Source: Streptomyces halstedii
Lineage (GTDB): Bacteria > Actinomycetota > Actinomycetes > Streptomycetales > Streptomycetaceae
NCBI GenBank assembly: GCA_000720535.1
Contig: JOAZ01000003.1
Location: 1 to 64,000 of the forward strand
DNA length: 64,000 nt
Direction of reading: 5' to 3'
The notes under the pieces were generated by a model that saw only the letters and a program-made list of their open reading frames with translations, was not told where the DNA came from and searched no databases. Below, in pieces: positions 4,666 through 35,536 of this stretch (position 1 is the first letter of the stretch; each line of letters begins with the position of its first letter). A program made the translations under genes and the position numbers.

Positions 4666-5046
4666 TCATCCGCCTTCGGCGTCCCGGACCTCTTCCGTGC
4701 GCGCCGCCATGAGGGACTCGTAGTACGTGCCCAACCTCCGCAGATAGAAGAGGTCACTCGTGTCGTTGTCGCGTTCGAAGCGGGGTGCCGCCTTGATCTC
4801 GTCCTTGCCGCACCTGACCTTGACCGTTCGCCCGGCCTTGTCCACCTCGGTCACCAGACCCGCCGGAACGACCACGCTCCGGCCGAACTTCCACACGCCC
4901 GCGTCGACCACCAGATGGTCGAACCCGGGGATCCGCGACAGCCTCACCACGGTTCCGAGGCTGCCGTCCTCCGCCTCCACGTCGTACTCGATCACGTCCT
5001 CACCCAGCGCGGATGTCGGGTCTTCCCAGATGCGGACCGTGTCCAT
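4666..5046 (-). CDS. PRC-barrel-like small cytoplasmic protein
   Basis: A 126-residue protein with a beta-rich core ([33 protein letters not shown] in part, then [31 protein letters not shown]). This arrangement resembles PRC-barrel and photosystem-reaction-centre-type domain proteins found next to stress genes in actinobacteria. The C-terminus ([12 protein letters not shown]) is helical. ATG at 5046 is preceded by CACGGAGGACGACG, a good ribosome site. Function unknown. The nearby GlsB-type gene and SigB-type promoter suggest a stress setting. Confidence 0.7.
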
Positions 5047-5417
5047 CGTCGTCCTCCGTGCTCTCGGCTCTCGGCTCTCTGCTTCCCGGTCTCCGGTTCC
5101 GGCCGGCCTCTTCCGGCCCGCTCCCGGTCTGCTTCCGGTGTTTCGGGACCTTCCGTATGCCCAGGAACACGGAACGGAACCGTGTGTCACCGGACCGTGC
5201 GCCGGAGTACCGGGCCGTGCACCGGAGTACCGGGCCGTGCACCCCAAGAAGCGGGCCGTGCGCCGGACAAGCGGCGGGTGGCGGCTCACGGCAGGACGCC
5301 CGCCCGGCTGCCAGGGCCCCGCGGACGGACAGGCGGGGCGTGGCAGCCGGCGGGCCTATGCGTGGCACGAGGCACTGAGGACCGAGGACCCGTCGCCCCT
5401 ACGGGCCGGGTACGGCG
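5047..5417. other. 371-bp intergenic region with 20-bp tandem repeats
   Basis: No gene seen. About 3.8 imperfect copies of a 20-21 bp unit (consensus CGGGCCGTGCACCGGAGTAC) occupy 5191-5268. A simple CTCTCGG/CTTCCGG-rich stretch lies at 5060-5150, next to the start of the PRC-barrel-like gene. Confidence 0.75.
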
Positions 5418-5681
5418 TCAGCTACGGGACTTGAGCCGTTCGAGAGCGGCCACACCGACCACCGCCAGGCCGACCTGGATGGCGAGTTCGATCCAGTCGA
5501 TCCCCTTGGTGTCCGCGACACCGAAGGCGGCCGCGACAGCCGTACCGACGAAGGCCGCGACGATACCGACGACGATGGTCCAGAGCACGCCGATGTGCTG
5601 TCGGCCCGGGAGTACGAGCCGTCCCAGGATGCCGATCACGATGCCGACGACGATCGCGCTGATGATGCCGGAGATCTCCAT
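5418..5681 (-). CDS. GlsB/YeaQ/YmgE-family membrane protein
   Basis: An 87-residue integral membrane protein with three hydrophobic helices: about 3-24, 33-55 and 66-82. The glycine-rich [14 protein letters not shown] segment is typical of the GlsB/YmgE (transglycosylase-associated) family, which is induced in envelope and general stress. ATG at 5681 is preceded by GGAAGAGGGGCACGC. It is divergent from the aldehyde dehydrogenase, whose promoter looks SigB-type. No enzymatic residues are known for the family. Confidence 0.88.
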
Positions 5682-5985
5682 GCGTGCCCCTCTTCCGTGG
5701 CTCTCGGGTGTCTCTCGGGTTGCGCCCCGGGACATGTCCGTTGTCTGCCCCGATCCGACGGAAGCACGCCCGTTCCGGCGGGCCCCCACGGAAAGCCGGG
5801 ACCCTGATCGCATCGCCCCGCCCCCTCCTCCACACCGAAGAACATGTTTTATCCGCGTTCGTACTGTTTTCACCTCTTCACACCGGGTACCACGCAGGGA
5901 GGGCCGAGAGGTCGGAACACATGGTTCCGCGAATTCCTCCCTGCCCCGCAATGCCTGCCGCACCGCCCGTCGTACTGGAGATTCC
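5682..5985. other. 304-bp divergent promoter region
   Basis: Lies between the GlsB-type gene (minus) and the aldehyde dehydrogenase (plus). It contains the SigB-type promoter at 5866-5890 and an AT-richer patch near 5843-5872. No gene is seen; the long open frame running through from 4291 into the dehydrogenase is a high-GC artefact. Confidence 0.7.
5866..5890 (+). promoter_or_regulatory. SigB-type promoter candidate upstream of the aldehyde dehydrogenase
   Basis: GTTT at 5866-5869 and GGGTAC at 5885-5890, spaced by 15 bases, fit the Streptomyces general-stress consensus GNNT-N14-16-GGGTA(C/T). The start codon follows at 5986, giving a leader of about 90 bases. Confidence 0.55.
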
Positions 5986-7401
5986 ATGTCGGATCAGCGC
6001 AAGAGCTCGTTCGCCACCGTCAATCCGTACACCGGGGAAACCCTGGCCACCTTCCCCGCGATCGAGGGCGCGGAGGTCGATTCCGTCCTCGACACCGCAG
6101 GTCAGGCGTTCGACGCCTGGCGGAAGCGGCCGATCGGGGAGCGCGCCGCGGTGATCGGGCGCGCGGCCGAGCTGATGAGGGAGCGCAAGGAGCCACTGGC
6201 ACAGCTGCTCACCCTGGAGATGGGCAAGCTGATCTCCGAGGCACGGGGGGAGGTGGATCTCGCGGCGTCGATCCTCTCCTACTACGCGGAGAACGGTCCC
6301 GCGTTCGCGGAGAACAAGCCGCTCGACGTCGAGGAGGGCGAGGCGTACCTCGTCAGCGAACCGCTCGGTGTCCTGCTGGGCGTCATGCCGTGGAACTTCC
6401 CGTACTACCAGGTGGTGCGCTTCGCGGGGCCGAACCTCGTTCTGGGCAACACCGTCCTGGTCAAGCACGCCGGCATCTGCCCGCAGTCGGCACTTGCCCT
6501 GGAACAGCTGTTCCGCGACGCGGAAGCGCCCAAGGGCGTCTACACCAACCTGTTCGTGAGTCACGACGAGGTCTCGCGCATCATCGACAGCCCGGTCGTA
6601 CGGGGAGCCTCGCTCACCGGCAGCGAGCGGGCGGGCGCCCAGGTCGCCGAACGGGCGGGGCGCAACATGAAGCCCAGCCTCCTGGAGCTGGGCGGCAGCG
6701 ACGTATTCATCGTCCTGGACGGCGAAGGGCTGGAGCGCACGGTCGGCGCCGCGGTGGCCGGCCGGATGTCGAACACCGGGCAGAGCTGCGTGGCGTCGAA
6801 GCGGTTCATCGTGCTGGCCGACGTCTACGAGGCGTTCGTGGACGGGATGCGGCGCGCGTTCGAGACGCTGCGCCCCGGCGACCCGGCGGACGAGTCGACC
6901 ACCCTGGGCCCGCTGTCCTCGGAGCAGGCGGCGTCGAGCCTGGCCGACCAGATCCGCGAGACGGTGGACCAAGGGGCCGAACTGGTCCTCGGCGGCCACC
7001 GGATCGACCGCCCCGGCGCCTTCGTCGAGCCGACGATCCTCACCGGGGTCAAGCCCGGGATGCGCGCCTACGCGGAGGAGCTCTTCGGCCCCGCCGCGGT
7101 GGTCTACCAGGTCGCCGACGAGGACGAGGCCGTCGCCCTCGCCAACGACAGCCAGTACGGCCTCGGCGGCTCCGTCTTCTGTGCCGACGTGGAGCGCGGC
7201 CGCAGGGTCGCCGAGCGGGTGGAGACCGGCATGATCTGGGTCAACCACCCGACCGCGACCCAGGCCGACCTGCCCTTCGGCGGGATCAAACGGTCCGGCT
7301 ACGGGCGTGAGCTCTCGAAGCTCGGCATGCGGGAGTTCGTCAACCGCAAGCTCGTGCGCGTCCTGCCGCCCGACGCCGAACTGCACGGCATCGCCGGCTG
7401 A
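5986..7401 (+). CDS. NAD(P)-dependent aldehyde dehydrogenase (succinate-semialdehyde dehydrogenase type)
   Basis: A 471-residue ALDH-superfamily enzyme that oxidises an aldehyde to an acid. PWNFPYYQ (135-142) includes the oxyanion-hole N137, GSERAG (212-217) is in the cofactor site, LLELGGSD places the general base at E234, and GQSCVASKR places the nucleophile at C268. Length and NPYTGE at the N-terminus fit the GabD-like succinate-semialdehyde group, but the substrate is unproven. ATG at 5986 follows CTGGAG. The open frame upstream to 4291 is not coding. It precedes an aldo/keto reductase on the same strand, and a SigB-type promoter suggests stress induction. Confidence 0.92.
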
Positions 7402-31117: not shown

Positions 31118-31790
31118 CGATGTCTCCAACAAGTCGCCACGGCGATCCGGCCATGTTCATGGTCAGTGTGGACCAGAGGCTACTGATCGTCCGCCAGGAG
31201 AGCGAGTGGAAACGGAAATTAGAGATCCGTTATTGGTCACACACCAGTGGCATGTGCAATCGTCCGTCGCTGCGTGTGAACGCGGCGCGACGGAACGGCA
31301 CCACGGAGCACCGCCCGCCCTCTCCACGCGCGTTCCGACCGGAAGCCCACCGAACCCGACTGTTCGTCATGTACGCGTGAGGTTCCCGCTGTTGGCGGGC
31401 GCGGAGGCGGTGACGGTCCACTTCCCGGGACGGCCGCCCGCGTCCGCCGAATTCCCCGGTACGGCGAAGACGTTGGTGAAGCGTTAAACAGTTGTGCGCC
31501 TTCTCGGCGTCGATATCAGCGATTTCGGGGCCGCACCGACCGAAAAGTCCGGCGGCCGCCTCCTGTTCACGACTGGAGGCTCTCGTGACGGCCGTTTTCT
31601 GTGCCGAGGCGGCACGGCGCCCGCACCTCTCCGGCCTTCCCCCGGCAGGCCGACCGACCGGAGAGGCGTCCGACCAGGCGTTCGACATCCACCGGCGAGA
31701 GGTTCCGCCCCCGCAAACGCGCATCCCCGGATGTCCCCACCATCAGGCGATTCGGGCCCGGGACCCGCGTGTCGCGCGGCGGCGGGGAAC
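31118..31790. other. 673-bp gap without a convincing gene
   Basis: A relatively AT-rich promoter-like stretch lies at 31150-31260 (upstream of the methyltransferase). It includes the loose dyad TGGTC-N6-GACCA at 31160-31175. A 36-codon ORF from GTG 31377 to the TAA at 31485-31487 has ordinary GC bias but no recognisable sequence. 31490-31790 has open frames on both strands without support. I see no RNA gene. Confidence 0.5.
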
Positions 31791-32330
<540 letters not shown>

Positions 32331-33309: not shown

Positions 33310-33846
33310 ATGCGCGCGATACGTGTCGCACCCGTCGCCCTGCTGGGGGCCGCTCTGTGCGCCGTGGCGGCACCGGCCGCGTCGGCCACCGTACCCACCG
33401 GCGGCACACCCACCTCGTTCACGCCGACCATCACCCCCTCGGCGGTCGCGCCCGGAGGCCAGGTCACCCTCGGCGCGGTGGGGTGCGCCGGCGACGCGAC
33501 CGCGTTCTCGGGCGTGTTCGACACCATCACCATCCCCCAGGGGAGGTCGGCCACCGTCACCGTCGACAAGCAGGCCCGGCGGGGTGCCTCCTACCCGGTG
33601 ACGTTCCGCTGCGGCACCGCCACCAAGACGGCGAACCTCTCCGTCACGGCCGCGCCCACCAGCACGCCGACCACGGTTCCCACCACCAGTTCCACCGTCG
33701 CCCCCCAGGGCGTCCAGGGCGGCCTCGGCGGCAGCGCGGAGGCCATGGACCCCACCGAGATCGCCGCCGGCTCCGCGCTGGTCACCGTCGCGGCCGCCGG
33801 CGCCTTCTACGCGCTGCGCAAGCGGCGCGCCGAGCGCCGCCACTGA
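33310..33846 (+). CDS. Secreted Ig-like protein with QGGLGGS and C-terminal anchor (possible sortase substrate)
   Basis: 178 residues. The signal peptide is 1-26 (ending ASA). A beta-rich domain holds two cysteines (C59, C101) that probably form a disulfide (PSAVAPGGQVTLGAVGC opens it). A Thr/Ser/Pro linker (115-133) leads to QGGLGGS at 136-142. A hydrophobic helix (about 151-168) and RKRRAERRH close the protein. This is the layout of a cell-wall sorting signal without LPXTG. A paralogue with the same motif is convergent, and a class F sortase follows. ATG at 33310 is preceded by CCCGGAGGATTCAC. Confidence 0.8.
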   Translation: MRAIRVAPVALLGAALCAVAAPAASATVPTGGTPTSFTPTITPSAVAPGGQVTLGAVGCAGDATAFSGVFDTITIPQGRSATVTVDKQARRGASYPVTFRCGTATKTANLSVTAAPTSTPTTVPTTSSTVAPQGVQGGLGGSAEAMDPTEIAAGSALVTVAAAGAFYALRKRRAERRH

Positions 33847-33873
33847 CGGCCGCGCGCGTACCCTCGTACGGAA

Positions 33874-33908
33874 GTCGCCCCGGGTCCTGGTCCAGGACTC
33901 GGGGCGAC
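33874..33908. terminator. Bidirectional terminator between the two secreted-protein genes
   Basis: About 15-bp stem, 33874-33888 with 33894-33908 (one G-T pair), 5-base loop, between convergent genes. Confidence 0.8.
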
Positions 33909-33941
33909 GGGCGTATCGGGCCGGACGGAAGGCCGGACGCC

Positions 33942-34553
33942 TCAGGCCGACGCATGGCCGGTCCGGCGCCGGATGACGAGCGCGGCACCGCCGAGCGCCG
34001 CCGCGGCGACGAGACCGCCACCGACGCTCATCTCGGTGGAGCTGGGGCCGATGGAGCCGCCGAGGCCGCCCTGTGCGCCCCGGCCGGGGATCACCGTGAA
34101 GCGCGCGGTCGCGACCGCGTCGTTCCCGCCCTGGTTGCCGCGGTCGCCGCCGTTGCCCCGGTCGCCTTCGTTGCCCCGGTCGCCCTCGTTGCCGCCCCTG
34201 TCCCCGTTCCCGCCGCCGTAGTTGTTGTCGCTCTCGTTGCACTTCACCGACAGGCTGTACTGGCCGGGGGTCGTGTTGTCGCGGATGTGCGCGGTGGCGT
34301 AGCCGACCCGGCCCGGTGAGAGGTTCACCGTCGGGAACGCGTTCGACCAGACCTTGCCGCCGGAACGGCCGCAGCCCTCGGCGCTGACCTGCATGGTGGC
34401 GCCCTGGTGGACGCGGGACGGGTTGACGGTGACATGGGTGGGAACATTGACGGGCTCGGTGCCCGGACCGCCGCCCGCAGCGGCCAGCGGGGCAGCGAGC
34501 CCGACCGCCGCGAAGGCGGTCGCGGTCACCGCGAGAGCGCGTGAAGCACGCAT
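33942..34553 (-). CDS. Secreted Ig-like protein with GDRGN repeats, QGGLGGS and C-terminal anchor
   Basis: 203 residues, paralogue of the convergent gene. It has a signal peptide (1-26) and a two-cysteine beta domain (C61, C105; PSRVHQGATMQVSAEGC). A hydrophilic GDRGNE repeat follows (117-140, three and a half six-residue units), then QGGLGGS at 161-167, a hydrophobic helix (about 176-194) and RRRTGHASA. The shared heptapeptide sits at the same place relative to the helix as in the partner, although the linkers differ completely. That argues for function in the motif. ATG at 34553 is preceded by CTGGAGGTTCACAAG. A class F sortase gene is divergent. Confidence 0.82.
   Translation of the reverse strand: MRASRALAVTATAFAAVGLAAPLAAAGGGPGTEPVNVPTHVTVNPSRVHQGATMQVSAEGCGRSGGKVWSNAFPTVNLSPGRVGYATAHIRDNTTPGQYSLSVKCNESDNNYGGGNGDRGGNEGDRGNEGDRGNGGDRGNQGGNDAVATARFTVIPGRGAQGGLGGSIGPSSTEMSVGGGLVAAAALGGAALVIRRRTGHASA
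34134..34205 (-). repeat. 18-bp tandem repeats encoding GDRGNE units
   Basis: Imperfect 18-base repeats within the secreted protein gene encode successive six-residue Gly-Asp-Arg-Gly-Asn-Glu/Gly units. Such arrays change copy number readily. Confidence 0.75.
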
Positions 34554-34867
34554 CTTGTGAACCTCCAGCGGGAAGCGCCCCGGAGGCCTGTCCTCCGGGA
34601 TCGGTCGATGAGGACGCGTCCCATGACGAACCATCACCAGAGCTGACGTACGCCGCACGTCGGCACTGGTCCACCCCGGTGAGCCGACACGCCGTAGGAG
34701 CGCGCTCGTATCTGACGGAGCCGCAGGTCACGCTCGGTCAGGACTTTTATCCGCTCATTACTCCGAACAGCACGGCCCTGTGGCGGCCGTCCCCCGTTCG
34801 CCCTTCCCTGATCGCCGCCGTCCGGCCCCGCGCCTAGCGTGACGCTGTCGCGACGAAGGGAAGAACC
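34554..34867. other. 314-bp divergent region between secreted protein and sortase
   Basis: No gene seen. An AT-richer patch (34740-34775, with ACTTTTATCCGCTCATTACTC) is promoter-like for the sortase direction. It should hold promoters for both genes. Confidence 0.5.
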
Positions 34868-35536
34868 ATGGGCCGGGACCAGTGGGACACCGTACGGAGC
34901 AGACGGACGCCGTGGGGCGCCATCGCCTTGGTGATGCTCACCGGGCTCGCCCTCATGCGCAACGGCGTGGAGACCTCCGCCGGTCCGCCGCAGCCGGCCG
35001 CGACCGCGGCCGCCTCCGCCGCCGCTCCCCACGACGCGGTGGCCGCCGCCCCCCTCCCCGACGAACCGGTCCAGCCGCTCGCGTACGCCCCCGCCTCCCG
35101 GGTGCGGATCCCGTCGATCCAGGTGGACGCGCCGCTGATCGACGTGAACCTCGACCCGGCGGGCTGGATCGAGGCACCGCCCCCGCAGGACCCGAACCTC
35201 GCCGGCTGGTACCAGAACGGCATCGCCCCGGGCCAGCGGGGGACGGCGGTGGTGGTCGGTCATGTCGACAACCTGGCGGGCCCCGCGGTCTTCTACGGCC
35301 TGGGCTCCCTGGAGAAGGGCCGGCGCGTCGAGGTCACCCGCTACGACGACACCATCGCGGAGTTCGAGATCTACGGGGTCGAGGTCTTCCCCAAGGACGA
35401 CTTCCCCGGCCCCCGGGTGTACGGCGACACCGGCTACGCCGAACTGCGGGTCATCACCTGTGGTGGCGGTTACTCCAAGGCCGGCGGCTACGACGGGAAC
35501 GTGGTGGTCTTCGCCCGGCTCGTCGGGACCCGTTAG
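34868..35536 (+). CDS. Class F sortase
   Basis: 222 residues. One N-terminal membrane helix (about 15-31), an Ala/Pro linker, then the sortase barrel (about 75-222). The catalytic residues are H132 (VVVGHVDN), C198 (RVITCGGGY) and R217 (VVVFARL), in the order and spacing of class F enzymes of actinobacteria. Sortases cut a C-terminal signal of exported proteins and join them to the wall. No LPXTG protein lies in the window; the two adjacent QGGLGGS proteins are the natural candidates. ATG at 34868 follows GAAGGGAAGAACC. Confidence 0.92.
   Translation: MGRDQWDTVRSRRTPWGAIALVMLTGLALMRNGVETSAGPPQPAATAAASAAAPHDAVAAAPLPDEPVQPLAYAPASRVRIPSIQVDAPLIDVNLDPAGWIEAPPPQDPNLAGWYQNGIAPGQRGTAVVVGHVDNLAGPAVFYGLGSLEKGRRVEVTRYDDTIAEFEIYGVEVFPKDDFPGPRVYGDTGYAELRVITCGGGYSKAGGYDGNVVVFARLVGTR

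Follow-up and report, generated by a model that had tools for sequence, protein, structure and literature searches.

A class F sortase of Cutibacterium acnes was reportedly characterised by Di Girolamo in 2019. The roles of class F sortases are still termed unknown in the available parts of two published accounts (PMC13251363, PMC6998099). For Actinoplanes missouriensis, the former places AMIS_11010 beside srtF1 and AMIS_36440 beside srtF4; in the part available, both proteins were set aside because the six listed pentapeptides are absent from them, and the authors allow that they are possible class F substrates (PMC13251363). Other described systems are the class E sortase and LAXTG chaplins of Streptomyces (PMC5148588) and the NCBIfam profile NF058571, 'GVDTG sorting domain' (GVDTG_CTERM). 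Here, a window of 64,000 nucleotides from Streptomyces halstedii (contig JOAZ01000003.1; a genome of 7.74 Mb in 105 contigs) was analysed for a locus comprising a class F sortase gene and the genes for two exported proteins, A and B, that share the heptapeptide QGGLGGS. Comparison of sequences indicates that QGGLGGS is the glycine variant of a putative class F signal that is phylum-wide, though not universal, and that occurs beyond chance. A and B are likely to be recognised as substrates by the adjacent class F sortase through this signal, and V-x-[T/A/S/G]-G ahead of a membrane helix is probably a class F recognition tag. The features of the locus, in window coordinates, are as follows (ORF, open reading frame).

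33310..33846, + strand: putative substrate protein A, 178 amino acids (ORF; orthologues within the window's clade)
33709..33735, + strand: predicted sorting signal of A, GVQGGLGGS, residues 134-142 (homologue conservation; NF058571 match begins at 33709)
33760..33843, + strand: hydrophobic helix of A (residues 151-169) and basic tail RKRRAERRH (sequence)
33942..34553, - strand: putative substrate protein B, 203 amino acids (ORF; orthologues within the window's clade)
34053..34079, - strand: predicted sorting signal of B, GAQGGLGGS, residues 159-167 (alignment A2; NF058571 match 33963-34079)
33945..34028, - strand: hydrophobic helix of B and basic tail RRRTGHASA (sequence)
34868..35536, + strand: class F sortase, 222 amino acids, with an N-terminal hydrophobic segment as putative membrane anchor (NF033748, PF04203)
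35261..35263, + strand: sortase catalytic His132 (invariant in alignments)
35459..35461, + strand: sortase catalytic Cys198 (invariant in alignments)
35498..35500, + strand: sortase Asn211, in the column where other sortases have the catalytic Arg (alignment)

The genes for A and B are convergent, and that for B is divergent from the sortase gene. The initial annotation had described two convergent exported proteins built to one plan, and the ORFs and sequences bear this out: each has a signal-peptide-like start (called with a simple script rather than a trained predictor), a two-cysteine domain (a beta domain in A), a linker, the nonapeptide, a helix and a basic tail. The linkers, Thr/Pro-rich in A and made of GDRGNE repeats in B, are unrelated in the alignment, as had been stated. 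Thus, both proteins carry, in order, the export start, pentapeptide position, hydrophobic helix and basic C-terminus of a sorting signal, and their pentapeptides, GVQGG and GAQGG, are not of the LPXTG, LAXTG or NPXTN type. The statement that no LPXTG protein is present holds for the window locus, but LAETG and LAATG proteins occur elsewhere in the genome.

In comparison to the described systems, the C. acnes class F sortase is like the window sortase in family, His and Cys, but LPXTG is its reported signal (PMC13257024), whereas the window locus has no LPXTG partner and has Asn211 for Arg. The class E system, as far as PMC5148588 was available, likewise involves exported proteins with a pentapeptide, helix and basic tail, but the pentapeptide differs and the Arg is retained; a V-x-[TASG]-G tail was found at only 1/30 class E loci. 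AMIS_11010 and AMIS_36440 share with A and B a signal peptide, transmembrane region, basic tail and class F neighbour, a comparison that uses the available part of the published description, not sequence (PMC13251363). NF058571, compared by name and profile alone, has the same C-terminal anatomy and pentapeptide core as the A and B tails, but its curated cut-off of 29 bits misses most of the tails found here. For instance, A scored 26.7 bits as a protein and 29.9 bits in a genome search, and B scored 16.4 and 19.8 bits; of ten partners, one passed, four scored too low and five were without a match at E<=0.01. In a scan of 119 genomes, in which part of the candidates in large genomes were scored, matches at E<=1e-4 occurred in 11 genomes, all among the 25 with class F sortases at >=64 bits (Fisher p = 4e-9), and the cut-off was reached at at least nine places. 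By eye, 12 of 14 matches adjoin a class F sortase, and the other two lie less than 600 bases from a contig start. To judge by these profile matches, NF058571 describes clearly the same kind of tail and catches a minority of class F tails. The earlier idea of an unrecognised sorting signal is therefore supported as to the signal, but the motif has been widened and re-registered to G-V-x-[T/A/S/G]-G and is partly caught by NF058571. In the open literature, with subscription journals mostly outside the scope, no proposal of a class F signal of the V-x-[TASG]-G kind was found.

Co-localisation with class F sortases carries much of this reading. In the window genome, 6/6 class F sortases adjoin a protein with a signal peptide, helix and basic tail, and the partner motifs are GVQGG and GAQGG (contig C3, the window), HVRTG (C4), GVHAG (C8), PVRAG (C9), AVPAG (C14) and GVDAG (C23). 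A phylum survey of the 119 genomes placed class F sortases (>=64 bits) at 73 places in 25 genomes; 69 of these, in 66 loci, were used, and G013:C790, G094:C36 and G006:C214 (contig ends) and G006:C19 were left out. The control was the 30 best-scoring class E loci, one per genome, from 60 genomes, which hold 1.5 kb per side, less than most class F loci. Within 1.5 kb, an ORF that combines a signal peptide with a C-terminal helix and a basic tail was present for 56/69 class F sortases versus 5/30 class E loci. The tail neighbour carried the scored motif for 50/69 class F sortases (47 with a detected signal peptide) versus 1/30 class E loci, an optimistic class F count because the scoring matrix was trained partly on the same loci and a VNTG rule was added after viewing them, so that the held-out figures given below are the clean ones. 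Shuffled segments averaged 1.4 and never exceeded 3 in 60 rounds, and a strict regular expression combined with a signal peptide was found for 38/69 class F sortases versus 1/30 class E loci. The class E hits trace to L103, where the strict rule matched an antisense ORF inside the sortase gene and the scored motif also gave one hit; the class E locus L116 adjoins a canonical LPLTG protein. The nearest loose-motif neighbour of the 50 was upstream on the same strand in 44 cases, upstream on the opposite strand in five and downstream in one. The co-occurrence of motif and class F sortase that the initial annotation had suggested searching for is thus a strong association.

Within Streptomyces, the A/B family matched (E<=1e-8) at 105 places in 35 genomes, of which 89 have a listed class F sortase no more than 3 kb away, an approximate figure since the sortase list is incomplete and the 105 places include pieces of one gene. 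Three Streptomyces genomes (G128, G134, G145) have class F sortases and no A/B-family match, and one (G214) has neither. Class F sortases number 2-8 per Streptomyces genome among the matches listed (E<=1e-20, 31 genomes). The phylum association, this approximate count of A/B places and the pairing of A with B in 72/81 loci of the window's clade support the earlier suggestion of a dedicated sortase-substrate group.

The motif was also recovered without supervision. Expectation maximisation (EM) on 99 non-redundant neighbours, which include spurious ORFs, gave G-G-V-x-[A.50/T.33/G.11/S.03]-G-x-G-G, in which V and the next G are the most informative positions (2.4 and 2.3 bits, respectively); 43/99 neighbours scored above the 99.9% shuffle level. 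EM on the 33 same-strand neighbours from genera other than Streptomyces gave [G/R]-V-x-[T/A]-G, and the GVDTG of NCBIfam was therefore reached independently. The expression [VMIA]x[TAG]GxGG occurred in 34/61 Streptomyces tails (composition-preserving shuffles: mean 1.4, maximum 7 in 400) and in 12/38 other tails (mean 0.7, maximum 3); LPxTG or LAxTG occurred in 1/61 and 1/38, respectively. The loosest expression, [VMIA]x[TASG]G, was weak (51/61 versus a shuffled mean of 33.2 in Streptomyces), and its reversed form was also above shuffles in Streptomyces (46/61 versus 33.1), though not in the others (19/38 versus 19.8); the stricter forms were therefore relied on. A seven-wide EM model trained on Streptomyces tails was rejected, as its register stops before the constant Gly and it recognised 3/38 other tails at the 99% level.

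A held-out set of 64 class F sortases, chosen from a longer list of other genera of the class, confirms the motif, more weakly, and shows that it is not universal. An exported tail neighbour was present for 51/64. The fixed strict rule was matched in 27/64 (shuffles: mean 13.3, maximum 21 of 500) and Vx[TAS]G in 32/64 (mean 9.0, maximum 18); the reversed control gave 16/64 (shuffled mean 12.9), and LPxTG or LAxTG was found in 0/64. Some loci that fail the fixed rule have clear variants, such as SVNAG, VKAGTGG and RAPHAGGGG. Additionally, partners at L340, L343 and L339 have Pro at the V position (RAPHAGGGG, RGPGTGGGG), which fits aligning the pentapeptide with L-P-x-T-G and makes them look intermediate between LPXTG and GVxTG. 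At L049, the partner at 4696-6327 (- strand) ends RGGAQTGGGGMAGR with no helix beyond the motif, and is truncated, frameshifted or otherwise anchored.

Within the window's clade, the core of the signal is kept while its surroundings change. Complete A and B ORFs picked by the beta domain alone (n=156, from 81 clade loci) retain GG-x-GG-[S/T] ahead of the helix in 154/156 cases, the sequence being masked in one exception (L269) and apparently a fragment in the other (L258). The fuller form G-x-x-GG-[LIV]-GG is present in 145/156, and nine others have GG-x-GG-S with the first or sixth place differing. At the first place of the nonapeptide, G gives way to P in L247, L261, L263 and L267; the invariance of this G in alignment A2 is built in, since the A and B rows there were picked by a motif expression. 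Thus, the shared heptapeptide QGGLGGS is identical in window A and B as first described, but its Q varies among orthologues (Q/R/L/E/K and others) and the core is GG-x-GG-[S/T]. The linkers of A and B are fully divergent and vary freely among homologues.

The predicted A domain has seven strands (residues 38-112), with block means of the model confidence score pLDDT of 95-97 over residues 41-110, and the model places the C-terminal helix at 148-175 with low confidence. A fold search with A gave weak matches, many of them Ig-like (best E 0.007), and a PDB sequence search returned nothing useful for A or B. Outside the A/B family, the tail is found on other payloads. In a Pfam scan of twenty partners, an ice-binding-like domain (PF11999) was found on the class F tail at four loci of other genera (L045, L059, L060, L066), DUF4397 at L056, L058, L072 and L085, CHRD at L057 and L067, and an AMIN-like domain at L051; the remaining payloads are the Ig-like domain of A/B or have no meaningful Pfam match. 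Since the partners carry unrelated domains, the tail is the common element, as opposed to descent of whole proteins.

The sortase itself was confirmed as class F, as the initial annotation had it, with 204.5 bits to NF033748 (class_F_sortase; cut-off 166) and 77.5 bits to PF04203. Its closest named relatives are from Streptomyces sp. NRRL WC-3549 (86%) and SirexAA-E (85%). Of the catalytic residues first assigned, H132 and C198 are invariant, but R217, nearly invariant solely within the window's own clade, is not the catalytic Arg; Asn211 fills that column. Across 218 class F domains the column holds Asn in 209 and Arg in seven, with two unaligned, and in the tree set it is Asn in 72/73 partner-bearing sortases, the remaining one having a gap. 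Replacement of Arg by Asn in actinobacterial class F sortases has already been reported (available part of PMC6998099, citing Malik and Kim 2019), and Asn211 therefore does not exclude class F membership. In the phylum set, a scored partner was present for 50/62 Asn-type versus 0/7 Arg-type sortases, the seven being one clade from three genomes of one family. Such a tie between the Asn/Arg split and partner type was not found in the open literature searched; the Asn replacement itself is known. In a SrtE1 study, the Arg was modelled as a hydrogen-bond donor to the P3 carbonyl (available part of PMC5148588), and loss of the Arg might therefore accompany a changed signal. A predicted structure of the window sortase was set aside, its mean pLDDT of 56.7 being too poor for an argument about the pocket, and a PDB search with the sortase profile gave one chain, 4d70, 'sortase family protein'. 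Elsewhere among the class F loci, the automatic alignment of the held-out set puts Ser, Thr or Asp in the catalytic-Arg column of L288, L290, L297, L319, L324, L326 and L328, and tandem class F sortase genes occur at L074, L075 and L095. In S. griseus NCTC13033 the sortase lies on two contigs (L206, L207), and the L206 copy has no intact tail partners, perhaps through frame errors in the assembly.

A sortase tree was built from 95/218 domains after removal of near-duplicates, with the fragment L184_2987 kept on a long branch. Among its 74 domains with a scored partner, the fourth position of the partner motif is A in 36, T in 30, G in five and S in three, and this residue changes 14 times on the tree versus 29.8 times on average, and never fewer than 24, in 500 shuffles. 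Of the five Gly-labelled sortases, four fall in one clade; the fifth, L132, belongs to the same group of nine rows, where it is placed among Ala forms. The sister of the four is L039, which has an identical A-B-sortase layout; its A protein carries GVHAGEGGS and is 38% identical to window A in an alignment that extends through the motif, and its B protein carries GVRGGLGGS. With an Ala-form A and a Gly-form B, one sortase appears to serve both kinds of substrate, and the alignment makes the window motif, position by position, the same signal as the common Ala form.

On this basis, the signal would be an LPXTG-like pentapeptide, G-V-x-[T/A/S/G]-G, usually followed by x-G-G and relaxed at the fourth position, at a median of about 12 residues ahead of the hydrophobic helix and basic tail. 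The proposed pentapeptides are G134-V135-Q136-G137-G138 in A and G-A-Q-G-G in B. By analogy with LPXTG sortases, A and B would be exported and held in the membrane by the tail. C198 would then attack the carbonyl of the fourth residue (G137 in A), assisted by H132, with N211 standing where other sortases have Arg; as a thioacyl intermediate forms, the tail from G138 onwards would be released, and transfer to an amine, most likely that of a peptidoglycan precursor, would follow. Cleavage, scissile bond, acceptor and all steps after export are what we infer from established sortase chemistry. Since the window's clade has Gly at the fourth position, the predicted scissile bond is G-[V/A]-x-G|G, and a Gly|Gly cut at the G137|G138 position is favoured with some reserve.

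Several other explanations have to be weighed against a sortase acting on A and B in this way. The two could be ordinary tail-anchored proteins, with a Gly-rich spacer alike through duplication and a sortase that acts elsewhere; the segment is indeed Gly-rich and both proteins have a plausible membrane anchor, but the motif recurs beside class F sortases on unrelated payloads, exceeds composition-matched shuffles, and is kept in 154/156 homologues despite freely varying linkers. At class E loci it appears once in 30, in an ORF that is perhaps no gene. In its form with a recent duplication, which the initial annotation had offered, this explanation fails on age: other A proteins are 46-76% identical to window A, B proteins only 29-35%, and when window A and window B are compared directly by BLASTP the E value is 0.15, so the pair is old. 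Similarly, both motif-bearing paralogues are present in 72/81 clade loci, with one in seven loci and none in two, and three of these nine loci are near contig ends. Ordinary tail anchoring is therefore quite unlikely.

Alternatively, the tail might be a signal for another enzyme, such as a rhomboid-like or exosortase-like protease, with the sortase a mere neighbour. C-terminal signals containing GlyGly exist in other systems, and GlyGly-CTERM goes with rhombosortase, but 12/14 NF058571 matches adjoin class F sortases; judged by sortase neighbours, with no search aimed at other recurrent genes of these loci, this is highly improbable. A sortase that cleaves the tail and then hydrolyses the intermediate, or uses an acceptor other than peptidoglycan, leading to release or polymerisation, is unlikely. 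Asn for Arg and the relaxed fourth position could alter the second step, and two linked substrates would permit cross-linking, but the anatomy of A and B equals that of wall-anchored substrates.

Substrate recognition by the class F sortase through this signal also has to be set against a number of observations that weigh against it. The C. acnes class F enzyme is reported as an LPXTG user (available part of PMC13257024), and a quadruple class F deletion in Actinoplanes had no visible phenotype, as far as the available part of the report goes (mBio 2026, PMC13251363). In the phylum set, 12/62 Asn-type sortases have no scored partner, the count of 50/69 is optimistic as noted, and the Arg-type sample is small (three genomes, a single family). 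The fixed rule was failed by 37/64 held-out loci, including 13 that lack an exported tail neighbour altogether, and at least four held-out loci (L312, L316, L318, L328) have a tail but no such motif. The congruence on the tree is partly what co-inheritance of linked genes would give. Additionally, a scissile-site Gly is atypical of sortases. As a separate observation, three of those four held-out loci have in common PSNAAEAAA...GRRGLINGSVGGSL, possibly another signal.

Upstream of A, at 31494-32330 (+ strand), lies the gene for an exported, proline-rich protein that has two cysteines near its start, a helix and the basic end LRPRSSR, and a Bestrophin-like gene sits between it and A. V-x-[TASG]-G is absent from this protein, and a Pfam scan gave no match; the product of L039 7138-8244 (- strand) resembles it by look, not by alignment. 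Scans for promoters and terminators gave no result.

Overall, the findings lean somewhat towards a wider view, in which Asn-type class F sortases would form a separate actinobacterial sorting branch: the Arg is replaced, G-V-x-[T/A/S/G]-G is read with any small scissile residue, enzymes and substrates form private pairs, payloads vary, and one Streptomyces clade cuts between Gly and Gly. With a defined signal and the gene-pair rule, candidate class F substrates can be named across many genera. If class F sortases do read such a signal, this would also account for such neighbours having been missed when substrates were sought through a few pentapeptides. A sortase that takes Gly or Ala at the scissile position without the catalytic Arg would be relevant both to the mechanism of sortases and to tools for protein ligation.

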